From assembly GCF_018736065.1 (NCBI RefSeq), contig NZ_CP076129.1:62001-126000 (forward strand): a stretch of 64,000 nt of DNA, given 5' to 3'. Both the position numbers and the translations under genes were made by a program. The stretch is from Flammeovirga kamogawensis. GTDB taxonomy: Bacteria > Bacteroidota > Bacteroidia > Cytophagales > Flammeovirgaceae. The notes below the pieces were generated by a model. That model made no database searches. It saw only the letters and a program-made list of their open reading frames with translations, and had not been told where the DNA came from. Positions 10,718 to 64,000 of the stretch are shown one piece after another. Numbering within the stretch: the first letter of the stretch is position 1; every line of letters begins with the position of its first letter.

Positions 10718-10735
10718 ACCACACCACACCACACC
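10718..10735. repeat. Short tandem repeat (ACACC units)
   Basis: A CCACA/ACACC pentamer is repeated about 3.5 times directly after the stop codon of the lipoprotein gene and before its terminator. Confidence 0.7.
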
Positions 10736-10747
10736 AAATGATTATTA

Positions 10748-10787
10748 ACCCCTTCATTGATTATAAGTTAATGAAGGGGTATTTTTT
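10748..10787 (+). terminator. Rho-independent terminator after the unknown lipoprotein gene
   Basis: ACCCCTTCATT and AATGAAGGGGT form a perfect 11-bp stem, followed by ATTTTTT. Confidence 0.85.
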
Positions 10788-10944
10788 ATCTTAATACTTA
10801 AAAGTTGATATGAACTAGTTATTACACTAGTTTCTGTTTTTATTTATATAAAGAATTCCAATAAATACTATCATAGATGAACAATAGTATAATTATTGAA
10901 AAAGTAGATGAGTTAAAATTAATTGTATTGTGATATTAATTGTT

Positions 10945-11160
10945 GGCAGCTGCAATATCCTCTTTCTTCGCCTAACCCAACATATTGACATAACCCCTAA
11001 AGATCTTCAGAGATTCTTCGTAACTCACTTTATCCGTTTCATTCATTGCAGAATATTCTGATATTTTGAATAATTTTTTAAAGGTTCGTTCTTGTAATAG
11101 AGGAGGGAAGTCGATAACATAGTTAAAGTTAGATCTTACTACTTTTTTAGAAGCTTATAA
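10945..11160 (-). pseudogene. Rpn-family (PD-(D/E)XK transposase-type) C-terminal remnant A
   Basis: Read on the minus strand this encodes FNYVIDFPPLLQERTFKKLF, followed by a helix-rich segment ending in AKKEDIAAAN, the usual tail of Rpn-family nuclease/transposase proteins. An in-frame TAG interrupts it and no nuclease core is present. It differs from remnants B and C at its C-terminus. It lies at the left end of the immunity island. Confidence 0.65.
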
Positions 11161-11240
11161 ATAATTTTATTGGTGTATTTATTGTGATAAGTTTTAAAAT
11201 CATCCAATTATGGAGTTTGTAGTGACATTTGTCGGTGTAA

Positions 11241-11643
11241 TACTACAAAGGTTTGGGAAGGAGTGCGAATATAGCATTTTTAGATATTAAAGAAAGTTTT
11301 TCTAAAGAAACATTAATTGACTTATATAACGTCCAAAATAAGGTTGTTAGATGAGTTTTCTTTTTTAAATAGCAATGATTTATAACAAGATGAAAAGCAT
11401 TTAAAAATGTGAGAAATGTTAGAAAAAGCTACATAAAAGGCTTATACACATAATAGAAATAATACATTTTCAAGAAAAGGTTTTTTAGATTATGTAATAG
11501 AAAAAGTAAAATTGAAGTTAAATAAAAGCGGTTATAATTCTTATTTATTTCCTAAAGTAGAATTTGATAAAAAAGAGGTAATAAAAGCAAAGTATTTAGG
11601 ACAGCAAGGAAAAGTGATTAATAATATAAAACTAAATGAATAA
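11241..11643 (+). pseudogene. Dead polymorphic-toxin C-terminal remnant A
   Basis: A degraded reading frame starts YYKGLGRSANIAFLDIKES, shifts frame near 11345, and then carries three in-frame stops (TAA 11383, TGA 11410, TAA 11434). It ends with an open tail containing GFLDYVIEKVKLKL and YLFPKVEFDKKEVIK, whose stop is 5 bases before the immunity gene. Position, orientation and tight spacing fit the C-terminal tip of a contact-dependent or T9SS-type polymorphic toxin. The toxic activity cannot be assigned. Confidence 0.6.
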
Positions 11644-11648
11644 ATAAT

Positions 11649-12368
11649 ATGAAATATTTATTGAGAAGTAGTGTTAGATCGAAGATTTATGATATAGATA
11701 ATTTTACATTCGGAGAATGTTCAGGAAGTAAGACTTTAAATGATTTAGATCAATTACATCATAAACTTGAAAATGGCTTAAGCTTAGAAGAAGGATTTAT
11801 TTTTGATTATATAGATGTCATTGATAAGGCGGAGTTTGATAAACGAGAAGTGGTTCTTTCTAATTTTTACAACCGTATAGGTTTTACGATAATATCTAAA
11901 TTTAAGCTAAGTCCACTTTCTATTACACTTAGAGATATACTTAAAGGTTTTAAATTCTTAAATTCAAAGTTTTATGACGCTAAGGTAAAAGTAAGAGATT
12001 CATTTTATGACTTTAATGTATTAGTTACTCCACTCCGTGAGTTTTATGAATGTATCAATTTTGAAAAATCACGTTTTGATTTAGAAATAACGAGAACAGG
12101 TGAAATAGTTGAAAGAGATATAAAAAATGATTTTTCAACTCTTAGAGAATTAGAAGAGAATAGAACATCTCAATATAACCAATCTATAACTGCTCTATTT
12201 CAAACTGGTGTACTTAAATCAGCATATCGTAATATTGACCTAATATATTGGATAAGCCATGGTTTCCTTATCAGTGACCGATTAAAAGAAGCAATTGAAG
12301 CTGCAGATTTAGATGGAGTAGAAATTCGTAAAAGTCCTGTACATTTTACCTTTGCAGATGAAGAATAG
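11649..12368 (+). CDS. Imm11-like (DUF1629-type) immunity protein, copy 1
   Basis: A 239-residue soluble protein. The C-terminal stretch LISDRLKEAIEAADLDGVEIR matches the characteristic end of DUF1629/Imm11 immunity proteins of polymorphic toxin systems (family recalled, not searched). It starts 5 bases after the dead toxin tail, as immunity genes do, and would have neutralised that toxin in the cytoplasm. Residues 1-186 differ considerably from the second copy at 13217-13933, but the last 162 bases are almost identical. The gene is intact although its toxin is not. Confidence 0.65.
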   Translation: MKYLLRSSVRSKIYDIDNFTFGECSGSKTLNDLDQLHHKLENGLSLEEGFIFDYIDVIDKAEFDKREVVLSNFYNRIGFTIISKFKLSPLSITLRDILKGFKFLNSKFYDAKVKVRDSFYDFNVLVTPLREFYECINFEKSRFDLEITRTGEIVERDIKNDFSTLRELEENRTSQYNQSITALFQTGVLKSAYRNIDLIYWISHGFLISDRLKEAIEAADLDGVEIRKSPVHFTFADEE

Positions 12369-12409
12369 AACAAGAAATATTTTCTTGTTAAGAATTATTT
12401 TAGAATACA

Positions 12410-12446
12410 CAACAAGCCAACCTACAAAAACTAGGTTGGCTTGTTG
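12410..12446 (+). terminator. Terminator hairpin between immunity gene 1 and the convergent Rpn tail B
   Basis: CAACAAGCCAACCTA and TAGGTTGGCTTGTTG form a perfect 15-bp stem with a 7-nt loop. The same hairpin recurs at 13976-14014 and in decayed form at 18494-18526. A smaller 9-bp hairpin (AACAAGAAA/TTTCTTGTT) lies just after the stop codon. Confidence 0.8.
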
Positions 12447-12458
12447 CATATTTATGGT

Positions 12459-12745
12459 TTACTGCTGTATATTTTTTACTTCTTCAATGCTAAGTCCATC
12501 GAGAAGCATGGATTTGGCCGTTTCTACAGCCTGTTCTTTTTTCCCCTCTTCCTTCGCCTGATCCAACGTATTTACATAGTCCCTAAAGGTCTTCAGAGAT
12601 TCTTCGTAACTCACTTTATCCGTTTCATTCATTGCAGAATATTCTGATATTTTGAATAATTTTTAAAAAGTTCTTTCCTGTAATAGAGGAGGGAAGTCGA
12701 TAACATAGTTAAAGTTAGATCTTACTACTTTTTTAGAAGCTAATA
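12459..12745 (-). pseudogene. Rpn-family C-terminal remnant B
   Basis: The minus strand reads FNYVIDFPPLLQERTF, a TAA stop, then KLFKISEYSAMNETDKVSYE and a tail ending DGLSIEEVKNIQQ. It matches remnant C but lacks 11 codons in the tail, an in-frame loss between two similar GL(S/T)IE repeats. Only the C-terminal third of an Rpn protein is left and the nuclease core is absent. Confidence 0.65.
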
Positions 12746-12826
12746 AATAATTTTATTGGTGTATTTATTGTGATAAGTTTTAAATTCATCCAATTATGGA
12801 GTTTGTGGTGACATTTGTCGGTGTAA

Positions 12827-13211
12827 TACTACAAAGGTTTGGGAAGGAGTGCGAATAAAGCATTTTTAGATATTAAAGAAAGTATTTCTAAAGAAACATT
12901 AATTGACTTATATAACGTCCAAAATAAGGTTGTTAGATGAGTTTTCTTTTTTAAATAGCAATGATTTATAACAAGATGAAAAGCATTTAAAAATGTGAGA
13001 AAAAGCTACATAAAAGGCTTATACATATAATACATTTTCAAGAAAAGGTTTTTTAGATTATGTTATAAAAAAAGTAAAATTGAAGTTAAATAATAGTGAT
13101 TATAATTTTTATTTATTTCCTAAAGTAGAATTTGATAAAAAAGAAGTAATAAAATCAGAGTATTTAGGTCAAAAGGTAAGAGTGATCAATAATTTAAAAC
13201 TAAATGAATAA
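12827..13211 (+). pseudogene. Dead polymorphic-toxin C-terminal remnant B
   Basis: This is the second copy of the remnant at 11241-11643. It has the same frame break and the same three stops at equivalent sites (TAA 12969, TGA 12996, TAA 13011), plus two small in-frame deletions relative to copy A. Only the last about 50 codons differ noticeably (YNFYLFPKVEFDKKEVIKSE, then YLGQKVRVINN). The stop is 5 bases before the second immunity gene. Confidence 0.6.
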
Positions 13212-13216
13212 ACAAC

Positions 13217-13933
13217 ATGAAATATTTATTAAAAAAAAGTATAAGATCTAAAGTCTTCGATAGAAATGAATTTACATTTGGAGAATGTGATGGAGATAAT
13301 TTAAAAAATTTGGAAGAGGTACATCATATTATTCAAAATGAATTAAGTTTCCCTGATAATTACATTTTTGATTATATAGACATCATTGATAAAGCTGATT
13401 ATGATAAACGAAAAGTGATTCTTTCAAATTTGTATAGTCGTATTGGTTTTACAGTTAGACCTAGAATAAATTTAAGCCCTCTTTCTAATACATTAAAAAA
13501 AATTTTACAAGAGTTTAATTCTTTAAATTCAAAAATTTATGATGCAAAGGTCAAGGTAGGGTATTCATTTTTTGATTTTAATGTGATGGTTTCTTCAAAG
13601 AGAGAATTTGAAAAATGTATTTGTTTTGAAAAATCACTTTTTGATTTAGAGGTAATTAGTACAGGAGAAATACTTGAAAGAGGTTTAAAAAATGAATTTC
13701 CAACAATTAAAAAATTAGAAGAGAATAGAAGACATCATCACGATCAATATGTAACAGCAATATTTAATAAAGGTGTTCTTAAATCAGCATATCGTAATAT
13801 TGACCTAATATATTGGATAAATCATGGTTTCCTTATCAGTGATCGATTAAAAGAAGCAATTGAAGCTGCAGATTTAGATGGAGTAGAAATTCGTAAAAGT
13901 CCAGTTCATTTTACCTTTGCAGATGAAGAATAG
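13217..13933 (+). CDS. Imm11-like (DUF1629-type) immunity protein, copy 2
   Basis: A 238-residue paralogue of the protein at 11649-12368. By eye the first about 185 residues are roughly 60 percent identical, while the last 54 residues differ at one position. Both keep start, stop and frame. It follows dead toxin remnant B by 5 bases and ends before the same terminator hairpin. Likely a cytoplasmic immunity protein against a variant of the same toxin; the toxin itself is not present in working form. Confidence 0.65.
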   Translation: MKYLLKKSIRSKVFDRNEFTFGECDGDNLKNLEEVHHIIQNELSFPDNYIFDYIDIIDKADYDKRKVILSNLYSRIGFTVRPRINLSPLSNTLKKILQEFNSLNSKIYDAKVKVGYSFFDFNVMVSSKREFEKCICFEKSLFDLEVISTGEILERGLKNEFPTIKKLEENRRHHHDQYVTAIFNKGVLKSAYRNIDLIYWINHGFLISDRLKEAIEAADLDGVEIRKSPVHFTFADEE

Positions 13934-13975
13934 AACAAGAAAAATTTTCTTGTTAAGAATTTAATTTAGAATAGA

Positions 13976-14014
13976 CAACAAGCCAACCTACAAAAAAATT
14001 AGGTTGGCTTGTTG
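13976..14014 (+). terminator. Terminator hairpin between immunity gene 2 and Rpn tail C
   Basis: The same 15-bp perfect stem as at 12410-12446, with a 9-nt A-rich loop. Confidence 0.8.
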
Positions 14015-14026
14015 CATATTTATGGT

Positions 14027-14345
14027 TTACTGCTGTATATCTTTTACTTCTTCAATGGTTAGACCCGAATATTGAGCAACTTTTTCAATGGTAAGTCCAT
14101 CTTGAAGCATGGATTTGGCCGTTTCTACAGCTTGTTCTTTTTTCCCCTCTTCCTTCGCCTGATCCAACGTATTTACATAGTCCCTAAAGGTTTTCAGAGA
14201 TTCTTCGTAACTCACTTTATCCGTTTCATTCATTGCAGAATATTCTGATATTTTGAACAATTTTTAAAAAGTTCTTTCCTGTAATAGAGGAGGGAAGTAG
14301 ATAACATAGTTAAAGTTAGATCTTACTACTTTTTTAGAAGCTAAT
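14027..14345 (-). pseudogene. Rpn-family C-terminal remnant C
   Basis: The best preserved of the four Rpn tails. After an in-frame TAA it has 77 open codons containing EYSAMNETDKVSYEESLKTF and ending in DGLTIEKVAQYSGLTIEEVK plus DIQQ. The repeated short helix motif GLTIE(K/E)V is typical of Rpn-family C-termini. The upstream nuclease core is gone; the similarity stops near the repeated 20-base motif at 14357-14376. Confidence 0.65.
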
Positions 14346-14428
14346 AAATAATTTTATTGGTGTATTTATTGTGATAAGTTTAATCAATAGGCAAAGTTCT
14401 ATATGATTCCCTATCACTTAACTCATAG

Positions 14429-14542
14429 AATGTAGAGAGAAGTAGATCAAATGTAATATTTCAAGTCAAAGGGGAACCAAAATTAATCCTTCATCCAAGT
14501 GAAAAGGGTACTGTGCTTAAAGTTATTTTAGAACAAATGTAG
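14429..14542 (+). pseudogene. Short toxin-tip remnant
   Basis: An open frame without its own start reads NVIFQVKGEPKLILHPSEKG and ends in KVILEQM, with its stop 4 bases before the next small gene. Position and spacing are those of a toxin C-terminus preceding an immunity gene, but only about 37 codons remain and no domain can be named. Confidence 0.4.
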
Positions 14543-14546
14543 TACA

Positions 14547-14774
14547 ATGGAAAATCAAGAGATTAAAAATAAAATTCAACTATTACGTTCAAAACATAAA
14601 ATTATAACTGAAAAACGGAGACAAAATAATGATGATAAAATTGAAGATTCTCTATTTCATCAACATCAAATATTACTAAAACAAATATCTGAATTGGAAT
14701 GGAAGTTAAAATCAAGTAGAGAAAAGAATGAACATACAAAAGCTGTACTTAATATGGGTAGAAAATGGTTATAA
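14547..14774 (+). CDS. Small coiled-coil protein, candidate immunity protein
   Basis: A 75-residue highly charged protein (many Lys, Glu, Gln) with heptad-like spacing of Ile and Leu, so a helical hairpin or coiled coil is likely. It starts 4 bases after a toxin-tip remnant and its TAA stop abuts the ATG of the next small gene, which implies coupled translation. No family recognised. A role in toxin immunity is inferred from position only. Confidence 0.5.
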   Translation: MENQEIKNKIQLLRSKHKIITEKRRQNNDDKIEDSLFHQHQILLKQISELEWKLKSSREKNEHTKAVLNMGRKWL

Positions 14775-14960
14775 ATGGGAGGTTCTGAAAATTCAACACA
14801 AGATAACGGGAAATTAGAACATATAATAAGTTTGTGTGATAGCACATTAGCTCTCTTGGAAATAAAAGATTTAGATATTGGTTTGGAAGATAAACTATTA
14901 GAAATGCTAGAATACATAGATTCAAAAAAAATAAATTATGACGTATACGTTAAAATCTAG
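14775..14960 (+). CDS. Small acidic protein, coupled to the preceding gene
   Basis: A 61-residue acidic, probably helical protein (LEHIISLCDSTLALLEIKDL). Its start directly follows the stop of the 75-residue gene, so the two may form one two-part immunity unit, or may be one ancestral gene split by a stop. Unknown family. Confidence 0.45.
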   Translation: MGGSENSTQDNGKLEHIISLCDSTLALLEIKDLDIGLEDKLLEMLEYIDSKKINYDVYVKI

Positions 14961-15070
14961 CTAAGGAGGTGACAAAACTAAAACAACAAATGGATAATGT
15001 AACGATGTTCATTATTGAAAATAATAAAGGGGTTCATGTAATATTAAAAGAACAATGGCAAATAAACTAA
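14954..15070 (+). pseudogene. Short toxin-tip remnant
   Basis: A 38-codon open frame without a start overlaps the end of the previous gene by 7 bases and reads LAKEVTKLKQQMDNVTMFII, ending in ILKEQWQIN. Its stop is 7 bases before the next gene. It is interpreted as the leftover C-terminus of a toxin cognate to the downstream protein. Confidence 0.4.
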
Positions 15071-15077
15071 ATTGATT

Positions 15078-15935
15078 ATGAAAAAAGGAATCAACGGATG
15101 GGAAACTAAATGGTGTGAACGATTGGCTGAATATGATACTGAATTTATCATATCCGATCACGAGGTCGAAAAAAAGTCTGAAGAGATTCTTATAAGATTT
15201 TTGGAAAGTGCAGAAAAGTACAATGTTTTAAAAATTCTTCCAGAAGGGGCTAAGTCTGAAAGTTATTTATCCTATATTAAAAGAGTTCGCCCTGAAAGTC
15301 TTGAATTTGATGAAAATAGTATCAGAAAATTTGCTTTCTACAATGAAGAAATAGGTACACCTGCAACCCGTTTAGCCTTTTATAATAAAAAAGGAGAAAT
15401 AGAAGAGAAAGATATTTACGTCTTTTGGAATTATGGTGGAGGGATAGAATATGTAACCCATAAGGTCAAAAACGGTGATGTAGAGTTTAAAAGAGTTGGA
15501 GGTAATGACTATGATTTAGTTCCTCCAATTAAATTTTCATGTGGACCTTATAGACGTAATGACCAATGGTTTTTTTATATTGGAATTTTTTTAATATCAG
15601 ACATTTGGTTACCAGTAGTTGATAGTTTAAAGATTGATACCACTGAAAATGATTCTTATCATTTAGGAGAAGTCGATAACAGACCACTAGCCTATAGACA
15701 TACGCCAAGATTAAATAGTTTTTTAAGGGATATTAAACAAATTTCCATAGAAAATAATGGAAAATGGCATTTTCATTCTGATGGATATGCCATTCAACAT
15801 GTTACAGATATGCGAAAGACTGAAGATGAAGATTCAGATAAAATATGGTGTGACCATGGTATTCCGTTAGATGGAAAAATAGTTTATCAGGAAGATATTG
15901 AGAGTGGTCGTGTTAAAATACCTTCTTTTGACTAG
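15078..15935 (+). CDS. Unknown soluble protein, candidate immunity protein
   Basis: A 285-residue soluble protein with no signal peptide or membrane segment, rich in Trp, Tyr and acidic residues (GINGWETKWCERL, VFWNYGGGIEYVTHK, KIWCDHGIPLDGK). I do not recognise the family. It follows a toxin-tip remnant by 7 bases and lies in a run of immunity-type genes, so an immunity role is the best guess. The ATG is chosen over a TTG six bases upstream. Confidence 0.55.
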   Translation: MKKGINGWETKWCERLAEYDTEFIISDHEVEKKSEEILIRFLESAEKYNVLKILPEGAKSESYLSYIKRVRPESLEFDENSIRKFAFYNEEIGTPATRLAFYNKKGEIEEKDIYVFWNYGGGIEYVTHKVKNGDVEFKRVGGNDYDLVPPIKFSCGPYRRNDQWFFYIGIFLISDIWLPVVDSLKIDTTENDSYHLGEVDNRPLAYRHTPRLNSFLRDIKQISIENNGKWHFHSDGYAIQHVTDMRKTEDEDSDKIWCDHGIPLDGKIVYQEDIESGRVKIPSFD

Positions 15936-15946
15936 TACCTTTCTGA

Positions 15947-16075
15947 ATTGACTTGGAAATAATCGATCAAGGTATTGTAAAACCTTTAGAAGATAGTAGA
16001 AACTACAAAACAGACGGTTTCTAAAGTTCAGAAAAATTAGTAAATGATCCTCTTACTATACCAAAATCAGAATAA
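15947..16075 (+). pseudogene. Short coding remnant, probably a toxin tip
   Basis: A frame with one internal TAA reads LEIIDQGIVKPLEDSRNYKT and then LVNDPLTIPKSE before a final stop. It is a decayed fragment in the same style as the other tails in this island; no intact gene follows directly. Confidence 0.35.
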
Positions 16076-16162
16076 AAAATAAACTCTGTATTGGTGTTAT
16101 TTCAAATCAATAAAACCCACTTTTCACATCATCTTGAAGTGTTTTTATTTTAAGCTACATTC

Positions 16163-16202
16163 ATAATCCCACAAGGTAAAAAATCTGTTGGGATTATTTT
16201 TT
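16163..16202 (+). terminator. Terminator-like hairpin with T-run
   Basis: ATAATCCCA and TGGGATTAT form a 9-bp stem, followed by six T. It closes the segment of the 15078-15935 gene and its remnant. Confidence 0.6.
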
Positions 16203-16269
16203 GACTAATCAAGGCAGAATTGAAGAGCATAGCTACGTGATGAAATTTTAACGCAGAGTAGTCAAAAAA
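16197..16269. repeat. Inverted repeat with 11-bp arms, possible dispersed intergenic element
   Basis: TTTTTTGACTA and TAGTCAAAAAA are perfect 11-bp inverted arms around a 51-base centre containing GCATAGCTACGTGATG. The rest of the gap up to 16518 holds a GTGAGTT/AACTCAC hairpin at 16414-16430 and no supported gene. Whether this is a repeated genomic element cannot be judged from one copy. Confidence 0.4.
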
Positions 16270-16518
16270 ACAAGGTCTAAAACTTCTGATTTTGATTGTA
16301 TAACTGCTTAATAGTAGACATTCCATAAATAACTGTTAGACAATATGTTCATGACCCTACAATTGGTCTATATGAATACACCTTATTTTGATCTATTTTG
16401 AAATACAGAAATCGTGAGTTACAAACTCACAGAATGTTCGAGTTCCGAGTGATACCTTCGGCTTAATAACAAGAACAGTGGGGGGAAGGGTATAAATCTT
16501 TAAATTCAAATTTATAAT

Positions 16519-16998
16519 ATGCTTAAAAAAATAAAAGAGGAGTTGGTTTTTACAGTTAAGGGGATGTTTTATTTTATCATATTCTCACCTGTATTAGTAT
16601 TGATATTATTGTTTTATGGAGAATATTTTGATAAAAGTTCTATATGTGTAAAGAATAAAGTATTAAATAGGGAATTTAACCTAGATCAGGTATTTAAAGA
16701 AATGAAGTATTACAAGTATGGAAATTCATACGGTTTTTATAAAAGGCAATTAGTTGGAGAAACTAATATTACAGGAGATTTTACATATAGTTATCAAGTG
16801 GTAGCAGATAAGAAAGAATATCAAATAATAGTACATGCTGTAATACATAAAAATAAATGGTATCTAATGGATTTAGTTGTTTATAAAACACCACATCGTT
16901 TTTTTTCATTATTATTGTCGAAAGGTGAATTGATTCTTCATGATAAGTATGATACATTAGAAGGTTCTAAAAATTATATTATTGATTGTCCTCTTTAA
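16519..16998 (+). CDS. Small membrane-anchored protein, candidate immunity protein
   Basis: A 159-residue protein with one N-terminal transmembrane segment (about 14-34, FYFIIFSPVLVLILLFY), then a single soluble alpha/beta domain facing outward. The soluble part loosely recalls the Coa1/Tim21-like fold seen in small bacterial accessory proteins; this is a weak impression. It precedes a Hint-type toxin remnant by a few bases. An anchored protein of this kind could protect against a toxin acting at the membrane or in the periplasm. Unknown family. Confidence 0.5.
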   Translation: MLKKIKEELVFTVKGMFYFIIFSPVLVLILLFYGEYFDKSSICVKNKVLNREFNLDQVFKEMKYYKYGNSYGFYKRQLVGETNITGDFTYSYQVVADKKEYQIIVHAVIHKNKWYLMDLVVYKTPHRFFSLLLSKGELILHDKYDTLEGSKNYIIDCPL

Positions 16999-17000
16999 GT

Positions 17001-17789
17001 CTGCTTTTCAGATATAACTTTATTGAAAAATACAGAGGAAATAGTTTTGGTGAAGAAGGGATTTTGGTGCATAATGTTTATGAGTTACCATCCAACATAA
17101 GTAATAAATTAGCTCATTAAAATTTATCTGAAGTGCAAATAAAAACATTTACAAATGAATTTTCTGATCCTAATTAAAGTAAATATAAAGATCAATTAGA
17201 TAACTTAGCAGAAGGAGCAGACGCAGCGAACATTCGTTCTAAAGTTGTTAAAGAGTTTAATGAACACTTAGGTCAAACAGCCAATAGTATAGATGAATTA
17301 ACAGTGAGACTTTCTAAAATAGAAAATCATGGTTCAAGAGGAGCAATTTGTGAAGCCTATATAGCCACCAAGAAAAATTTAACGAACACAGGTGTTGCAC
17401 ATCCACAAATAGAGTGTCCATCATTTAGTAAAAAGCGTATTCCCGATGGTATTTTTCATGTAGATGCTCAAGGTAAATTAGTGATCTATGATGTGAAACC
17501 GGGATATGTAAATGGACAAATTGATGTTGAACAGTTAGAGGATTATGCGAAGATGATTGAGATATTATCAACTGAAGGTCTAAATAGGACAAAACTCATC
17601 AATAAATTAAAAGAAAAAGGTATCAATATGGATGGTTTCTCAGGTGAAGTTGAAGTTCAGTATATTGTGATGCCGGGTAAAACGAATCAAGTGAATGATG
17701 CTGTAACAGCTATAGAGAAAAAGGTGAAAAATCAAAAAACAATAGATCCAAATTTTAGAGAAAAGATAATAGTTGAAAAAATGAAATAG
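17001..17789 (+). pseudogene. Polymorphic toxin C-terminus: Hint-domain end plus PD-(D/E)XK nuclease, with two stops
   Basis: The frame begins with the end of a Hint (intein-like) domain, YNFIEKYRGNSFGEEGILVH followed by N. The closing His-Asn is the self-cleavage site that releases toxin tips. Two TAA stops follow (17118 and 17175), then about 200 open codons. These contain IPDGIF and LVIYDVKPGY, which fit the Asp and D-x-K residues of a PD-(D/E)XK restriction-endonuclease-like fold, so the tip was a DNA-cutting toxin. The last 161 codons are intact and could be read from a GTG at 17304. The stop is one base before the immunity start. No full-length toxin gene is upstream: this is a displaced cassette. 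Confidence 0.65.
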
Positions 17790-17790
17790 A

Positions 17791-18489
17791 ATGGCGAATA
17801 TTAAATTGGACATTAAGATAAAATCAAATTTTTCTTTTTTAAAAAAAATTGAGGAGTTTATTTCCCTAATTTCTTGGGATTCTGTTTCTAAAAACATTGA
17901 CCCTTATAGGGAAGATTATATTAAAGATACTTATAAACTAGATTTATATGATTTTTTTACAACAACTGAAGTAAAAAGCAAAATTGTATATTCTTTTGAT
18001 AAAGAAAATACCTTAACTAAAAGCGAAAGTTCTTTAGTTTTTATTCTGAGTAATGAAAATATTTTTAGAATTACCCATTATAGCAATGATGAAGCTTTTT
18101 CTGAAATTAATTTTTCAAATTTTGACACCTTCTTCTTCAATCTCTACAAATCCATACCCAATGGCTTAGGTTATGTAAGTTGGGTGGATGTAGGGAACTA
18201 TTACAAATTTGATTCTAAATATGGGTTAGACAAATTTGAATTTTATGATTCAGTATTTAATGAAAAACCTCTTTTCTATCATTGTGTGACCACAGAAGAA
18301 GTTTATGAAGAAGATCACACCAAAGTTCAACTCCTCAATTGCCCTTTCATTAAAGTAGAAGAATGGGAAGATGGCAGTATAGAAATGTTGCATTATAACA
18401 ATCCGTTAGATATTGAATCCGATGAAAATATAGAGCAGATCAGAAAGGTAAGGAAGTATTTAAGTGAGAATAATTTGTATAGCGAATAA
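17791..18489 (+). CDS. Immunity protein for the PD-(D/E)XK toxin, copy 1
   Basis: A 232-residue acidic, aromatic-rich soluble protein starting one base after the nuclease toxin stop, so very probably its cognate immunity protein. Residues 112-231 are almost identical to the C-terminal 120 residues of the protein at 20551-21228 (GYVSWVDVGNYYKFDSKYGL, TTEEVYEEDH, QIRKVRKYLSENNLYS), while the N-terminal halves share little. This suggests a variable toxin-binding head and a constant tail. No named family recognised. Confidence 0.65.
   Translation: MANIKLDIKIKSNFSFLKKIEEFISLISWDSVSKNIDPYREDYIKDTYKLDLYDFFTTTEVKSKIVYSFDKENTLTKSESSLVFILSNENIFRITHYSNDEAFSEINFSNFDTFFFNLYKSIPNGLGYVSWVDVGNYYKFDSKYGLDKFEFYDSVFNEKPLFYHCVTTEEVYEEDHTKVQLLNCPFIKVEEWEDGSIEMLHYNNPLDIESDENIEQIRKVRKYLSENNLYSE
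18124..18483 (+). repeat. Constant 3' segment of the nuclease-immunity pair, copy 1 (partner 20866-21225)
   Basis: A 360-base direct repeat covering the 3' half of two immunity genes, nearly identical at nucleotide level and in the same frame. Upstream of it the two genes are unrelated by eye. Confidence 0.8.
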
Positions 18490-18493
18490 AAAG

Positions 18494-18585
18494 ACAAGTA
18501 ACCTACAAAAATAGGTTGGCTTGTTGCTTCTTTAAAGTTGTAGCTTACTGCTGTATATTTTTTACTTCTTCAATGCTTAGAAAAA
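18494..18585 (-). pseudogene. Decayed terminator plus Rpn-family tail remnant D
   Basis: After the immunity gene the shared hairpin recurs in mutated form, followed on the minus strand by the last dozen codons of the Rpn tail (a SIEEVKNIQQ-like end). Remnants of the same junction are therefore present a third time. The 20-base motif starting TTGGTGTATTTATTG is found again at 18749-18768. The bases between 18586 and 18811 hold no gene I can support. Confidence 0.55.
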
Positions 18586-18811
18586 TTAAGTAATTCATCA
18601 ACCCGATTACATAAACACCTTTAAGTTGATATTTCTAATCTGTCTCTCTTTCTGCTTGACATGAATGATTTTTTTTATGAAAATGCATAATTAAAAGATG
18701 AATATCAAGGTTTATTTATCACTGATATATTGTGAAATTATTGACTAATTGGTGTATTTATTGTGATATATTCTATTTGACGCTGTTGCTTAACACATAG
18801 AACAGTGATGA

Positions 18812-18998
18812 CAAAGACATACAAAAATTGTCCTTAAAAGAGATGTTAAACAAGGTCTGTTTGATAGGGTATATTATAACTCTCGCAATGGTGGTAGGTA
18901 TATCATTGTAGAAGCCAAAGGGGGAAGTTCTCGTATTGGTACTCGTTTGTATAAACAAAAAAACTACGAACAAGGAACAGATGAGTATCTTTTAAGTC
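18812..18998 (+). pseudogene. Remnant of a restriction-endonuclease-fold toxin
   Basis: A start-less frame reads VLKRDVKQGLFDRVYYNSRN, then GGRYIIVEAKGGSSRIGTRL and YEQGTDEYLL. The Asp in LFDRVYY and the E-x-K in IVEAKGG fit a PD-(D/E)XK nuclease core of the kind seen in Tox-REase domains of polymorphic toxins. The frame continues without sense beyond this point, and the next toxin domain continues in another frame, so this looks like a broken junction between two cassettes. Confidence 0.5.
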
Positions 18999-19349
18999 TT
19001 AGATGTAAAAGCTCAAGAGAAGGGCCGAAATACAGGGCAACAAGGCGGTTCTGTTGGAAAGAAAGATGGAGTGAAAGGCCAAGATGATGGAGGACATTTA
19101 ATTGCAAATGTACTTTATGGTCCTGGAGAGCAAATCAATTATTTACCACAGCGTGCTGATTTGAATAGAGGAAAATGGAAAGCCATGGAAAATGATTGGC
19201 GTAAGTTTTTGGAAGAAGACCCTAATAATAATTTGAAAGTTTGGATTACTCCAATTTATGAAGGTGATTCTCAAAGACCAATAAGGTTTGAAGCTCGACA
19301 TGAGGTTTATGACCTTAATGGTAAGTTTATTGATGAAGATGAGTATTAA
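18996..19349 (+). pseudogene. C-terminal DNA/RNA endonuclease toxin fragment (Endonuclea_2-like)
   Basis: The open frame carries GQDDGGHLIANVLYGPGEQI and then NLNRG-like DLNRGKWKAMENDWRKFL, the signature of non-specific DNA/RNA endonuclease toxin tips; the His of DGGH is the likely catalytic residue. It lacks any start or upstream delivery region; the earliest usable codon is a GTG at 19071. The fragment may retain the whole nuclease core. The stop is 15 bases before the next gene. Confidence 0.6.
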
Positions 19350-19364
19350 TAATTGAAAATTAAA

Positions 19365-19745
19365 ATGAATGAATTTATTGAAACATTAGTTGAATATCTA
19401 AATAATAATTTTGAGTGGGATACATTACATTTAAAAATTTCTATACAACCCAAATCAATAAATTATAAACCTAAATTCTTCCTTGATAATGAGAGAATTC
19501 CATTTAGATTAAAGTCTGAAATGAAAAACTACATTATGGATACAGTTCAAAAAAAACATATTCAATCGACTAAAAATGGTAAAAACAAATGGAACTTTGC
19601 GAACCTTACCTTATACCCCGATGGATCACATGAAATAGAATATATTTGGAACCAAGACCATCAAGATGAAGTTGATGGTTATAATCGTGAGGCAGAGGAA
19701 GAAGATCCAAATTATAAAGCACCAAAATGGCATTGGGAGGAGTAG
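19365..19745 (+). CDS. Candidate immunity protein for the endonuclease toxin
   Basis: A 126-residue soluble, strongly acidic protein ending in a run of Glu, Asp and Trp (REAEEEDPNYKAPKWHWEE). Acidic immunity proteins commonly mask basic nuclease toxins. Size and layout resemble the YezG/DUF600-type immunity proteins that accompany such endonucleases, but I am not sure of the family. It follows the endonuclease fragment by 15 bases. The ATG is preferred to a TTG 12 bases upstream. Confidence 0.55.
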   Translation: MNEFIETLVEYLNNNFEWDTLHLKISIQPKSINYKPKFFLDNERIPFRLKSEMKNYIMDTVQKKHIQSTKNGKNKWNFANLTLYPDGSHEIEYIWNQDHQDEVDGYNREAEEEDPNYKAPKWHWEE

Positions 19746-19790
19746 AATTTTTTAATTTACAATACATAAGCTGCTAATAACAAATTTGAT

Positions 19791-20321
19791 ATGACTAATT
19801 TTTCAGAAACTTACCTCAATATCATCGAACTTATAGTGCCAGAAGGCGGTATGAAAGAAGATTTGAAAAATGATATCAAATCATTTTTTAAAAATCCACA
19901 GATAGCTTTTAATGATTCTAATGAATATATAGGTGTATTATGTTATCGCCCCGAAGTTACTCCTAAAACTTCTAATCTTCATGAATTTTATTTCTTTGAT
20001 ATATTGACGGAATCATTTTTACAGTTAATTAATGGTGAAGTAAACAAAGATGAACTTTGGAGAAAAATGAGTGTTTTATTGATTGTGAATGACCTCAATG
20101 AGTTTAGAAGTAAGCTTGATTATGAGATTTATGAAAATGAAACAAAAAATTATAGTTGGAGTAATACCAATGAGATCATTAATTCTCCCAATTATAAAGT
20201 ATATGGACTAACGGTTGAAAATGACATGGCTGTAGGTATCATCAATTCAAAATATTTTGATAAGTTTCAAGAATTAATAAGCCAAACTGACATAAAGTTA
20301 ACAGTGCTATCTAACATATAA
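19791..20321 (+). CDS. Unknown soluble protein, candidate immunity protein
   Basis: A 176-residue acidic soluble protein (SETYLNIIELIVPEGGMKED, EFYFFDILTESFLQLINGEV) with no membrane segment and no recognised family. It lies 45 bases after the endonuclease immunity gene, in the same orientation, and before another toxin remnant. An orphan immunity gene is the likeliest reading. Confidence 0.5.
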   Translation: MTNFSETYLNIIELIVPEGGMKEDLKNDIKSFFKNPQIAFNDSNEYIGVLCYRPEVTPKTSNLHEFYFFDILTESFLQLINGEVNKDELWRKMSVLLIVNDLNEFRSKLDYEIYENETKNYSWSNTNEIINSPNYKVYGLTVENDMAVGIINSKYFDKFQELISQTDIKLTVLSNI

Positions 20322-20352
20322 TTAATGTTTTCTCATATAGTAGATAGTTCAT

Positions 20353-20550
20353 TTTGATGCATTTGAAAAGAAGGGTATAAATTTAGATAACTTCAGTAAT
20401 CAAGTTGAAGTTCATTATATAGTTATGCCAGGTAAGATAAATAAAGTAGATGAAGCTGTTAATGCAATTAGGAGTAAGAAAGAAACTATTTTTGAAGGTC
20501 CTCAACAATACAAAAGTATTAAAGATTTAATTAAAACAGATAAACTATAA
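20353..20550 (+). pseudogene. Tail of a second PD-(D/E)XK-type toxin
   Basis: A 65-codon frame without a start reads FEKKGINLDNFSNQVEVHYI and VMPGKINKVDEAVNAI. It aligns with the end of the nuclease toxin at 17001-17789 (KEKGINMDGFSGEVEVQYIV, MPGKTNQVNDAV) but has a different last 25 residues. The nuclease core is missing. Its stop directly abuts the start of the paralogous immunity gene. Confidence 0.6.
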
Positions 20551-21228
20551 ATGATGACGATTTTATATAAGTTAAATAATACTGAGAAAATACAGGATTC
20601 GATTTTTGATTCTTTAATAGAAAGTAAATTATTTATAGAACTAATATCTATAAAATTGATAGATTTTAATAATGGAGAAATAATCAATATTTTCCAAGGT
20701 TTAAGAGACTTAAAGAACTTTGTAGGAAATAATAAAATCATAACATATAATGATTCTATTGCAATTAATGTATCAGAATTCATTGATATGAGTATCAGAA
20801 GAACCTGTACACTAGAGATAGCAATTAGCATTGATAAAATTAAACATGAAATATTTATAGATTATGATACTTTCTTCTTCAACATCTACAAATCCTTACC
20901 CAATGGTTTAGGTTATGTAAGTTGGGTGGATGTAGGGAACTATTACAAATTTGATTCTAAATATGGGTTAGACAAATTTGAATTTTATGATTCAGTATTT
21001 AATGAAAAACCTCTTTTCTATCATTGTGTGACCACAGAAGAAGTTTATGAAGAAGATCACACCAAAGAACAACTCCTCAATTGCCCATTCATCAAAGTAG
21101 AAGAGTGGGAAGGTGGCAGTATAGAAATGCTCCATTATAATAACCCTTTGGAAATAGAATCCGAAGAAAATATAGAGCAGATTAGAAAGGTAAGAAAGTA
21201 TTTGAGTGAAAATAATTTGTATAGTTAA
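20551..21228 (+). CDS. Immunity protein for a PD-(D/E)XK toxin, copy 2
   Basis: A 225-residue soluble protein whose ATG follows the toxin-tail stop with no gap. Its first 105 residues are unlike those of copy 1 at 17791-18489, while the last 120 are almost the same. Start, stop and frame are intact. It is probably an immunity protein for a toxin variant that is now lost. Confidence 0.62.
   Translation: MMTILYKLNNTEKIQDSIFDSLIESKLFIELISIKLIDFNNGEIINIFQGLRDLKNFVGNNKIITYNDSIAINVSEFIDMSIRRTCTLEIAISIDKIKHEIFIDYDTFFFNIYKSLPNGLGYVSWVDVGNYYKFDSKYGLDKFEFYDSVFNEKPLFYHCVTTEEVYEEDHTKEQLLNCPFIKVEEWEGGSIEMLHYNNPLEIESEENIEQIRKVRKYLSENNLYS
20866..21225 (+). repeat. Constant 3' segment of the nuclease-immunity pair, copy 2 (partner 18124-18483)
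   Basis: The second copy of the 360-base direct repeat. The similarity begins sharply at the codon for Asp in DTFFFN and ends with the last codons of the gene. Confidence 0.8.
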
Positions 21229-60825: not shown

Positions 60826-62598
60826 TTACCACACCTTAAACGGTTCAAATTTATTAGTTACTTCAGTAAGAATACTATCCGATTTAAAATGAAAAGCTTT
60901 TCCATCTCTTAGTTCCATATAATAGTATAGCTTCGCTTTTTTTCCAGTTTTGGTTGTTGCAGCCCGTATTACCCCTTGATTATTTTTTATGTTTTTCACA
61001 TATTCATTAAGATCAAGAAAATGAGCTTCTTTTAAATTATAGGGCCTAGTAAAAGGAGAAGTAAATAAAATAGAAAACTTAGGAGTTATTTGTTCACCTT
61101 CAAAGTTATAAATAGTACTAATAGCACCGCCAATTGGTGAAGCAGAGATAACATACCCAAAGGCATTTTCTTCTGTTCGCCAGCCAGAGCGTGATACCAT
61201 AGTTCCTTCTTGGTGATGGTTTCTTGGTACTATCTCAGTGCCTAGCGTATCGACTAGAAAGTAAATTTTTTCTTCTCTATCATTATAAGCTGAAACATGG
61301 CAAAAACTTCCATATTGATCGACTATATAAATATCTTTAGGTAAAATGGGAGCAATAGGTTCTAATTCGTCATTAAAATAATCTGTTTTATGTTCTTTAG
61401 TATTATTTGGAATAAGGAGTTTATAAGTGTTATGATTAAAAGGAAATAAATAATGAAATTTTTCATCTGTACTGTATTCATTTCCTTGTAAATCTACCAC
61501 ACGATTGAGACCGTATTTTAGAACAGGTTCATCTGAATCACTATATATATCTACTTCGTATTTATAGCTAAATTCTAAAAATAACCCGTTTTTTTGGACC
61601 AAATCGATACCACCTTCTTGTTCTATAGACTCATTTATTTTTTCACCAGTATTCGTAAATAAATAACTTTTAGATGGGTGTAATGAATCCAAATCATGGT
61701 AGGTATTATTTCTTATTGTAAGATATGTAGAGTCCCATGGACTACTATAGGATCTCCCAGAAGATTCAATATCATCATTTTTACAGATAATACATTCTCC
61801 TTTATAATTGACAATAATTGAATGTTGATAATTTTTATTTTTATACCTTTCAATCATCGTTTTTTTGTCAGAAAGATAATCTTGTCTTTCTTTATTAACC
61901 ATTGAAATATTATAAGTATGTTGCCCTTGGTTAATAAAATTTTTTACGATTCTTGGATAAGAAAAAGCGAATTGCTTGTTTTTATAGCTAGCTGTTATTT
62001 TGTTGTCTTTTAAGGAATAAAAAGTAATATCCTTCTCTCTTCTATCTTCAGGTTCCTCAACAATAGCATAATGCCCATTACCAGTATAAAATATTCTTTT
62101 AGAGTTTACACCACAGTATTTTTTATAATACCAAGGAGATAGTCTTTCAGCCGTTTTAGCATCAAAAATAGCTTCTTTGTAAGCATCACCCTCTTTTTTT
62201 GCCCCGACAAAATATTTTGAGGTACCGTCAATTTCCGTACAAAGCGTTGTTGTGCAAAAATCTAATTTATTACCATCAGCATCATATACCAATAGGAAGT
62301 AATAATTTCCTTCCGAAGGTACGCCATTCCCAAATTTATTTACGATAGATACCCAACCTAGTTCTGGTATAATACTCCAAATACGCATTGGTCTACCACC
62401 TAGATATACTTTTTTTTCCATGGTATACCTGTCCACCAACCAGTAGGAGGTATCAGTATCCAAGTAGGGTATTAAAAAGTTGTGTTTTTCTTGAGGAGTA
62501 TCAAAAAAATGTTTGTAATCTATTTTTGTGTGATTTGAAGATGAGCACCCCAATAGTACAAGTGCTATAATAGATAATATTAGTTTGTTCTTTAGCAT
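60826..62598 (-). CDS. Lipoprotein of unknown function, tandem copy 1
   Basis: A 590-residue lipoprotein; LVLLGCSS is a clear lipobox (Cys18). The mature protein has repeated segments of the type F-x-x-x-x-D-x-x-G-x-E-(I/P) (YFLVDTLGTEIVPRNHHQEG, YLFTNTGEKINESIEQEGG, VVDLQGNEYSTDEKFHYLFP), which recall WG-type or similar beta repeats. No named family. It is 10 bases downstream of a very similar gene, so the two are a tandem duplication and probably one operon. The ATG nearest the signal sequence is chosen. Confidence 0.7.
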   Translation of the reverse strand: MLKNKLILSIIALVLLGCSSSNHTKIDYKHFFDTPQEKHNFLIPYLDTDTSYWLVDRYTMEKKVYLGGRPMRIWSIIPELGWVSIVNKFGNGVPSEGNYYFLLVYDADGNKLDFCTTTLCTEIDGTSKYFVGAKKEGDAYKEAIFDAKTAERLSPWYYKKYCGVNSKRIFYTGNGHYAIVEEPEDRREKDITFYSLKDNKITASYKNKQFAFSYPRIVKNFINQGQHTYNISMVNKERQDYLSDKKTMIERYKNKNYQHSIIVNYKGECIICKNDDIESSGRSYSSPWDSTYLTIRNNTYHDLDSLHPSKSYLFTNTGEKINESIEQEGGIDLVQKNGLFLEFSYKYEVDIYSDSDEPVLKYGLNRVVDLQGNEYSTDEKFHYLFPFNHNTYKLLIPNNTKEHKTDYFNDELEPIAPILPKDIYIVDQYGSFCHVSAYNDREEKIYFLVDTLGTEIVPRNHHQEGTMVSRSGWRTEENAFGYVISASPIGGAISTIYNFEGEQITPKFSILFTSPFTRPYNLKEAHFLDLNEYVKNIKNNQGVIRAATTKTGKKAKLYYYMELRDGKAFHFKSDSILTEVTNKFEPFKVW

Positions 62599-62608
62599 AA
62601 AATATAAT

Positions 62609-64000
62609 TTACCACACCTTAAACGGTTCAAATTTATTAGTTACTTCAGTAAGAATACTATCCGATTTAAAATGAAAAGCTTTTCCATCTCTTAGTTCCA
62701 TATAATAGTATAGCTTCGCTTTATTTCCTGTTTTGGTTGTTGCAGCCCGTATTACCCCTTGATTATTTTTTATGTTTTTCACATATTCATTAAGATCAAG
62801 AAAATGAGCTTCTTTTAAATTATAAAATTGATTATAAGGTGATGTAAATAAAATAGAAAACTTAGGAGTTATTTGTTCTCCTTCAAAGTTATAAATAGTA
62901 CTAATAGCACCGCCTATAGGAGAAGCAGAGATAACATACCCAAAGGCATTTTCTTCTCTATCCCATCCAGAAAGTGATATCATAGTTCCTTCTTGGTGAT
63001 GGTTTCTAGGTACTATCTCTGTGCCTAGCGTATCGACAAGAAAGTAAATTTTTTCATCTCTATCATTATAAGCAGTAACTCCACAAAAACTTCCATATTG
63101 ATCAGCTATAAAAATATCTTTAGGTAAAATAGGAGCAATTGGTTCTAATTTGTTGTTAAAATAATCTGTTTTATGGTCTTTAGTATTATTTGGAATAAGG
63201 AGTTGATAAGTGTTATGATTGAAAGGAAATAAATAATGAAACTTTTCATCAGTACTGTATTCATTTCCTTGTAAATCTACCACACGATTGAAGCCGTATT
63301 TTAGAACAGGTTCATCCGAATCACTATATATATCTACTTCGTATTTATAGCTGAATTCTATAAATAACCTGTTTTTTTGGACCAAATCTATACCACCTTC
63401 TTGTGCTATAGACTCATTTATTTTTTCACCAGTATTCGTAAATAAATAACTTTTAGAAGGGTGTAATGAATCCAAATCATGGTAGGTATTATTTCTTATT
63501 GTAAGATATGTAGAGTCCCATGGACTACTATAGTACCTCCCTGAAGATTCAATATCATCATTTTTACAGATAATACATTCTCCTTTATAATTGACAATAA
63601 TTGAACGTTGATAATTTTTATTTTTATATCTTTCAATCATCGTTTTTTTATCAGAAAGGAAATCTTCTCTATTTCTATTAACAAGAGAAATATCATAAGT
63701 ATGTTGACCTTGGTTAATAAAATTTTTCACAATACTAGGATAGGAATAATAAAGTTCCGAGTTTTTATAGAAAGCTGTAATTTTGTTTTCTTTTAAGGAA
63801 TAAAAAGTAATATTATCTCCTATTGGGCTTTCAGGTTCATTAATAATAGCATAATGCCCATTACCAGTATAAAATATTCTTTTAGAGTTTACACCACAGT
63901 ATTTTTTATAATACCAAGGAGATAGTCTTTCAGCAGTTTTAGCATCAAAAATAGCTTCTTTGTAAGCATCGCCTTCTTTTTTTGCCCCTACAAAATACTT
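62609..64000 (-). CDS. Lipoprotein of unknown function, tandem copy 2 (N-terminus outside the window)
   Basis: The frame is open on the minus strand from its stop to the end of the window, giving at least 464 residues. It is nearly identical to the C-terminal part of the copy at 60826-62598, with scattered changes (for example around ENALGY/ENAFGY-type segments and INQGQHTYDISLVNRNREDF against YNISMVNKERQDY). A GTG within the frame is not the real start. Function unknown. Confidence 0.7.
   Translation of the reverse strand, partial: KYFVGAKKEGDAYKEAIFDAKTAERLSPWYYKKYCGVNSKRIFYTGNGHYAIINEPESPIGDNITFYSLKENKITAFYKNSELYYSYPSIVKNFINQGQHTYDISLVNRNREDFLSDKKTMIERYKNKNYQRSIIVNYKGECIICKNDDIESSGRYYSSPWDSTYLTIRNNTYHDLDSLHPSKSYLFTNTGEKINESIAQEGGIDLVQKNRLFIEFSYKYEVDIYSDSDEPVLKYGFNRVVDLQGNEYSTDEKFHYLFPFNHNTYQLLIPNNTKDHKTDYFNNKLEPIAPILPKDIFIADQYGSFCGVTAYNDRDEKIYFLVDTLGTEIVPRNHHQEGTMISLSGWDREENAFGYVISASPIGGAISTIYNFEGEQITPKFSILFTSPYNQFYNLKEAHFLDLNEYVKNIKNNQGVIRAATTKTGNKAKLYYYMELRDGKAFHFKSDSILTEVTNKFEPFKVW

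Follow-up and report, generated by a model that had tools for sequence, protein, structure and literature searches.

A probable array of orphan toxin-tip and immunity cassettes with Rpn-bearing spacers in Flammeovirga kamogawensis

Introduction

Rows of toxin-tip and immunity cassettes have been described at several bacterial loci. Among the closest to the present case are the orphan cdiA-CT/cdiI and rhs-CT/rhsI arrays, in which tips without a start, each with an immunity gene behind it, form rows near or downstream of a toxin locus and full toxins of relatives carry the tips; such start-less tails were functional in Escherichia coli, and eleven orphan pairs are reported in one cdi locus of that species (PMC3150448). 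Here we analyze an island of this kind in Flammeovirga kamogawensis, where toxin tails, immunity-type genes and a recurrent spacer bearing an Rpn nuclease gene alternate at 10.95-21.23 kb of a 64,000-nucleotide (nt) stretch of contig C2 (C2:62001-126000, here called the window). The host genome (G000) comprises 6.97 Mb in four contigs, and the genomes of relatives are denoted G003, G004, G006 and so on; positions without a contig prefix are those of the window. As in the cdi and rhs arrays, start-less tips accompany immunity genes, and a relative's full toxin carries a tip. Unlike in those arrays, the toxin concerned appears to be a signal-peptide, fn3 and PT-HINT protein rather than CdiA or Rhs, an Rpn-bearing spacer lies between the cassettes, and the array is apparently cut off by an inversion.

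Other described systems share parts of this arrangement. The 3′ immunity arrays of the Vibrio cholerae type VI secretion system (T6SS), attributed to sequential displacement, keep old immunity genes downstream together with toxin remnants, as here, and the illegitimate step of the displacement model is itself termed putative (PMC5361080). Unlike those arrays, our locus shows no T6SS effector, and it has a fixed spacer end, whereas that report gives no specific integration site. Heterogeneous polyimmunity loci resemble the island in holding many unlike immunity genes in one orientation in a Bacteroidetes genome, and Imm11 and SUKH are named there; their definition bars toxin cassettes between the immunity genes, and as such cassettes are present here the island falls outside it (PMC3482391). 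Orphan immunity genes thought to protect against neighbors also make up the acquired interbacterial defense (AID) and recombinase-associated AID (rAID) arrays, although rAID is tied to a recombinase and the spacer here holds an Rpn nuclease (PMC12247911). Recombination between esaG or tipC immunity paralogues likewise involves conserved blocks around variable gene parts, but in the island the swapped part takes in the end of the adjoining toxin tail (cassettes A1 and A2; PMC9484751). Finally, the Rpn/RpnS system provides Rpn genes of the PD-(D/E)XK family whose C-terminal tail may also exist as a separate gene; the deleted copies here differ in sitting between toxin/immunity cassettes, and an antitoxin role for them is putative (PMC10327210). 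While rows of tip/immunity cassettes were already known elsewhere, the spacer made of a hairpin, an Rpn gene and a 20-bp end looks new, and in the open-access literature we found no paper naming both 'Flammeovirga' and 'polymorphic toxin'.

Results and discussion

Seven toxin-tail-like ends directly precede immunity-type genes

Within the island, seven tail-like open reading frame (ORF) ends lie 0, 1, 4, 5, 5, 7 and 15 nt 5′ of the start of a downstream gene, a repeated placement of a tip lacking both a start and any secretion part directly 5′ of an immunity gene. All of these tails and genes are on the + strand. In our view the island is probably a row of orphan cassettes, each comprising a 5′-truncated tip and its immunity gene, produced by successive displacement at polymorphic-toxin loci, reworked by recombination at spacers and gene ends and by inversion, and serving in protection against kin. 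An earlier note, made by a model from the letters of this DNA, had described at least seven tails a few bases before intact immunity-type genes and no full toxin in the interval. This observation largely holds: the seven pairs, their close spacing and the absence of a full toxin all stand, and every downstream gene is open except that at 14547, which contains an in-frame stop.

Two tails can be identified firmly as toxins. Tail C (18996-19349) matches the Endonuclea_NS_2 nuclease family (PF13930, E 9.5e-25, positions 41-127 of a 132-position profile, 87.8 bits against a gathering cut-off of 27). For tail B (17178-17789), residues 1-199 of 203 align at 77% identity with the tip of a full 2095-amino-acid (aa) toxin in G004, for which the profile matches are PT-HINT (E 2.3e-12) and a weak fn3 only (the VENN and DPxGL boundary motifs were not searched). 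The gene after that toxin belongs to the same family as the island's immunity genes at 17791 and 20551, and the two form an intact toxin/immunity pair. Fusion of a tip to a full toxin elsewhere was seen for tail B and for none of the other tails, and tails other than B and C had no family match. The assignment of tail B and the remnant at 18812-18995 to the PD-(D/E)XK type comes from motifs seen by eye and found no support in profile or Protein Data Bank (PDB) sequence searches, tail B having no match in the latter. A genome search for Tox-MPTase4 gave no match, but gave none in the controls either.

Directly upstream of tail B, a HINT-end remnant with two stops (17000-17177, +; GILVHN at 17050, by eye) matches the HINT region at C2:421996-422138 (79%, over 17055-17196). 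The stop at 17174-17176 also occurs in the same cassette of G004, a second assembly, and is therefore not a sequencing error, a concern that the earlier note had raised for the stops in general. After this shared stop, tail B remains open for 203 codons.

The proposal of orphan toxin tails with immunity genes is borne out by the Endonuclea_NS_2 match, by the intact G004 pair and by the Imm49, SUKH, HINT and EndoU matches in other arrays (below). Of the toxin types that had been suggested, the endonuclease is of the Endonuclea_NS_2 family, and the two PD-(D/E)XK types are a reading of motifs only. The profile searches recommended there recovered one NS_2 tail and Imm11-like genes under the cut-off, with no family for the other tails and genes, and the recommended search for full toxins placed the tip of tail B on the G004 toxin and found none in the host genome. 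Two of its descriptions fare less well. A range of toxin types called wide is not unusual beside the eleven orphan pairs of one E. coli cdi locus, and calling the tips dead is doubtful, since start-less tails are normal for orphan modules and functional in E. coli (PMC3150448) and tail B is open.

Immunity genes and mosaic cassettes

Cassettes A1 and A2 have tails with broken frames and no family (A1, 11190-11643, last open piece 11437-11643; A2, 12776-13211, last open piece 13014-13211; 79% identity). Their immunity genes, at 11649-12368 and 13217-13933, resemble Imm11 below the gathering cut-off (E 0.013 and 0.03); of two homologues scanned, the one in G006 is barely above it (22.2 vs 22.1 bits) and the one in G002 has no match. 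The two genes are 66.5% identical with near-identical 3′ ends. Along the cassettes, identity is 95-100% at 11020-11394, 68-87% at 11545-12219 and 96-97% at 12220-12369, and synonymous change is 0.44 in the first 180 codons and 0.17 in the last 58. As synonymous change parallels the identity blocks, this mosaic points to replacement by recombination rather than selection alone. Immunity genes B (17791-18489) and D (20551-21228) share their last 120 codons (93-95%; 93% for the C-terminal half of D) and are unlike before that point, and tail D (20344-20550), itself a C-terminal fragment, is a relative of tail B (57% across 42 aa). Genes without a family are called immunity genes from their position, and those of the 17791/20551 family also from their place behind the intact G004 toxin.

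A spacer of hairpin, Rpn gene and fixed 20-bp end

Between cassettes, a hairpin, an Rpn gene on the opposite strand (intact or internally deleted) and a fixed 20-bp end, TTGGTGTATTTATTGTGATA, follow one another in that order. The intact Rpn gene of a host spacer at C2:422491-423363 matches PF12784 (E 9e-70) and TIGR01784 (E 2e-35), and the island fragments fall under the cut-off. Other host copies retain residues 187-290, 187-239, 150-289 or about 103-147, and G004 has one intact copy and deletions like those of the host. Spacer 1, at the left end of the island, has a remnant of residues 187-239 of 290 with its 3′ side cut (10954-11112, -; E 1.7e-22 by tblastn with the intact gene) and the 20-bp end at 11170-11189 (+). 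Spacer 2 comprises the hairpin AAGCCAACCT..AGGTTGGCTT (12414-12442), an internally deleted Rpn that keeps its C-terminal tail (residues 187-290; 12459-12698, -; E 1.6e-34, with TIGR01784 at E 0.0037 for the last 57 aa) and the 20-bp end at 12756-12775 (+). Spacer 3 has a hairpin (13980-14010), an internally deleted Rpn with an intact tail ORF of 77 aa (14027-14293, -; E 9e-39, with TIGR01784 at E 4.6e-9, under the cut-off) and the 20-bp end at 14357-14376 (+). In spacer 4, an imperfect hairpin is followed by an Rpn with a different internal deletion (residues 103-147 and the last codons; 18509-18658, -) and by the 20-bp end at 18749-18768 (+). Copies are also incomplete in spacer 1 and at C2:427.5 kb, which lack the hairpin side, at C2:444.5 kb, which lacks the 20-mer, and at 869743 in G004, where an Rpn tail has no 20-mer beside it.

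The exact 20-mer occurs in two of the 147 genomes searched (five times in the host and four in G004), in arrays in nine cases of nine, and is absent from the other 145. Allowing up to two mismatches adds a single match in each of 19 further genomes and, in the host, one extra array match (two mismatches). At C2:422384 and G004:866141 the 60 nt upstream are identical (60/60) and the next 80 nt, belonging to unrelated cassettes of two species, are 20% identical; one spacer with a base-exact right end next to unlike cassettes in two Flammeovirga genomes is a concrete, testable junction. The hairpin pattern was found ten times in the arrays of both genomes and not at all in 330,600 nt of controls; around other Rpn genes it occurs six times in 338,338 nt, in the AAGCCAATCT form.

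Close relatives of the spacer Rpn have 52-58 nt before the gene in common with it and neither hairpin nor 20-mer, which suggests that Rpn was inserted once into an older spacer and then copied along with it. The same observation bears on a process in which Rpn drives displacement, its cutting of DNA promoting the insertion of incoming cassettes. Every spacer found in both species does carry an intact or deleted Rpn, and three of four host Rpn matches lie by toxin/immunity-type genes. Array-type neighbors, however, were present in 3 of 42 Rpn regions in the genus and in none of 38 control regions (5 of 145 and 0 of 140 ORFs, respectively), and the bare flanks of the close relatives suggest a single insertion and passive copying; an Rpn-driven process thus seems to us very unlikely. 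These 42 regions are part of 59 PF12784 matches outside the host genome, those left out being two G004 array matches, one on contig C112 of G006 (L105) and roughly ten more, which were for the most part fragments or located at contig ends. A Pfam scan of 135 of the 145 neighboring ORFs listed 162 families, of which the first 25 included housekeeping families and no immunity or toxin-tip family. Across the genus, then, we do not regard Rpn as generally accompanying toxin loci, array-type neighbors being found in few of the non-array Rpn regions.

It would be a bolder reading still, and one to which we give little credence, that the spacer is a working exchange platform, integron-like in effect with no integrase, and that tail-only Rpn copies are RpnS-type antitoxins against intact Rpn. 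If true, the deleted tails would form a second layer of orphan immunity and a nuclease-bearing boundary would make cassettes interchangeable; the displacement model does not yet explain how cassettes can be added or swapped when no integrase is involved.

Some observations on Rpn loci stand apart from these questions. The tails at 12459-12632 and 14027-14260 (-) are open ORFs with a ratio of nonsynonymous to synonymous change (dN/dS) of 0.07-0.25 in four comparisons, as if the tail alone were in use. A related hairpin, AAGCCAATCTA..TAGATTGGCTT, lies near 5 of 42 non-array Rpn regions (L119, L132, L146, L152 and L153) and 0 of 38 control regions. The sole host Rpn match away from toxin arrays (C1:1503487-1504179, L022) sits among small genes that look toxin-antitoxin-like by eye. 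At C3:235373-238942 of the host (L020), a toxin-like ORF with an Rhs-type ending (by eye) is followed by a small gene and an Rpn gene, after which a 142-nt piece of the toxin ORF is repeated (95.8%), and the flanking hairpins are of the AAGCCAATCT form.

Further arrays and the search for full toxins

Arrays also occur elsewhere in the host genome, at C2:405-428 and 443-447 kb, and contain Imm49 (E 1.2e-27), PT-HINT (E 1.5e-12), EndoU (E 2.8e-9), the intact Rpn gene and two SUKH genes. A DNA search of the genome with the island, in which 40 of 217 candidates were scored, returned 15 places, including the island itself, eleven at C2:405-445 kb, one on C3 and one on C1. A 1853-nt unit (14148-15998) has an inverted partner at C2:425878-427730 with 95.8% identity. 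It spans a toxin-tail-like ORF end without a family (14429-14542), the 14547-14960 gene with its stop at 14772-14774 (intact as a single 137-aa ORF in the paralogue C2:426916-427329), a second tail-like end without a family (14954-15070) and a 285-aa immunity-type gene, also without a family (15078-15935; paralogue C2:425943-426797, 95% identity).

No full-length toxin of the G004 class was found in the host genome by searches with the PT-HINT profile, which gave one partial match, and with the G004 toxin core; a query of its initial 900 residues had three matches, the best of them lacking residues 1-174. Full toxins of the class are present in G004 and G003, and a full toxin heads an array in G004 and none in the host. 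These results matter for the idea of a silent reservoir, in which the tails too are kept and recombination could fuse them to a full toxin carried by other members of the population, giving a different weapon. Such a role would fit the HINT-end homology at 17055-17196, the open 203 codons of tail B (dN/dS 0.29-0.32; 0.67% of neutral simulations stop-free) and the precedent of functional orphan tips (PMC3150448). Yet the host has no full toxin to take a tip, tails A1 and A2 are broken, and the divergence of tail B may mostly predate its orphan state, so a reservoir is in our view possible but doubtful.

An apparent inversion relative to G004

In G004 a TolC-like gene (93% identical to that at window 21413) adjoins a SusD-like gene, whereas in the host SusD lies at C2:447471 by the further arrays and TolC at C2:83413 by the island (both names are readings by eye). 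At the other end, the gene at 672-2345 and that at C2:403914 lie on one 13-kb stretch, on the same side, in G004. By this comparison the two genomes differ by an apparent inversion of a 322-375-kb piece, with one end in or beside the island (break point within 10718-21171) and the other in or beside the C2:405-447 kb arrays (within C2:405015-447471). Other break points would be compatible with two further features, a truncated spacer end that recurs at C2:427.73 kb and the toxin cassettes that G004 has at the first site, and we therefore give intervals only. For the same reason we did not adopt a simple model in which the island once followed straight on from the array end at C2:405.1 kb. An empty-site comparison through the 9011 gene in G001 found just that gene in common. 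An inversion of this kind would show that such arrays can rearrange the chromosome too.

The gap between SusD and TolC in G004 contains 58 nt like the 3′ end of gene D (21171-21228, +), the two agreeing at 44 of 58 positions; within 20 kb the runner-up reaches 31/58, and 30 shuffles reach at most 34. From this scar we conclude that an immunity gene of the 17791/20551 family probably stood at the site before the host and G004 lineages parted, which concerns at least the right part of the island. The island's right end would then belong to an old site by the SusD and TolC genes, from which the inversion separated the island. An island without a delivery region, as the earlier note had it, is true of the interval but misleading, the island being one of several arrays with its right end tied by synteny to the SusD/TolC site.

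This history also bears on an acquired defense island, with immunity genes gathered by transfer and kept as a shield only, like the AID and rAID arrays of gut Bacteroidales. Such an origin would agree with the diversity of immunity-type genes, with the lack of a full toxin in the interval and with the 74% identity of gene B to its F. aprica homologue. Each main cassette nevertheless keeps its toxin tail, and rAID arrays are not known to carry toxin tips. Pfam and NCBIfam scans, which covered the ORFs of the island and not the genes around it, detected no recombinase, and by synteny the right end belongs to an old site that G004 has too, not to a recent insert. We therefore consider acquisition of this kind unlikely.

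Selection on tails and immunity genes

For the tips, dN/dS is 0.28-0.38 (four comparisons), and for immunity genes it is 0.22-0.50 over whole genes (four comparisons) and 0.09-1.02 over halves. In neutral simulations (3000 each, with all differences on one lineage and the time before orphaning included), the sequence stayed free of stops in 0/3000 runs for A1 and for B, in 0.03% for 16519, in 0.67% for tail B and in 12% for 15078, a pair with a dN/dS of 0.50 that is uninformative here. Since dN/dS overlaps between tips and immunity genes and tail B too is rarely stop-free under neutrality, selection for immunity after toxin loss, which the earlier note had proposed, is neither shown nor refuted.

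Neutral wreckage, in which the cassettes were recently orphaned by inversion and deletion and have no present use, would explain the debris of further cassettes at 15936-16518 (+; three short matches, at C2:411.4, 423.5 and 412.0 kb), the broken 14547 gene and the values of the 15078 pair. The immunity ORFs of A1/A2, B and 16519 are open, though, where about eight stops would be expected under neutrality in a test that includes the time before orphaning, and wreckage strikes us as improbable.

A proposed model of successive displacement

Under successive displacement, the reading we favor, older cassettes would have been displaced one after another at polymorphic-toxin loci, their tips losing the 5′ part. 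Spacers and shared immunity-gene 3′ ends could then act as homology blocks for RecA-type gain, loss and swap of cassettes or specificity segments. Recombination between inverted array copies, such as the 1.85-kb unit, may have produced the inversion, and the island may combine parts of two arrays. Protection against relatives still armed with the matching toxins is the most likely role of the immunity proteins, the cell's own full-length toxin apparently having been lost.

Several points weigh against this account. Beyond the Imm11-like genes, the immunity-type genes, which are most of them, have no family in Pfam or NCBIfam profile scans, and genes B and D appear tied to a toxin via G004 only. 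The dN/dS values do not separate tips from immunity genes. The inversion is drawn from one relative and may reflect misassembly at inverted repeats.

Other features of the locus

Two immunity-type genes have no clear tail upstream: that at 16519-16998 (+; 159 aa), whose G004 homologue (60% identity) lies next to tail B there, and that at 19791-20321 (+), which has no family. Tail C is preceded by a toxin-tail remnant (18812-18995, +) with homologues at C2:406228-406377 and in two G004 arrays, and is followed by immunity-type gene C (19365-19745, +), without a family. Within the main G004 toxin array, two genes that resemble an IS21 pair by eye lie at C2:867270-869585 (L068). Elsewhere in the window, at 60826-63730 (-), two adjacent long ORFs have nearly the same C-terminal 370 aa, a sign of recent duplication.

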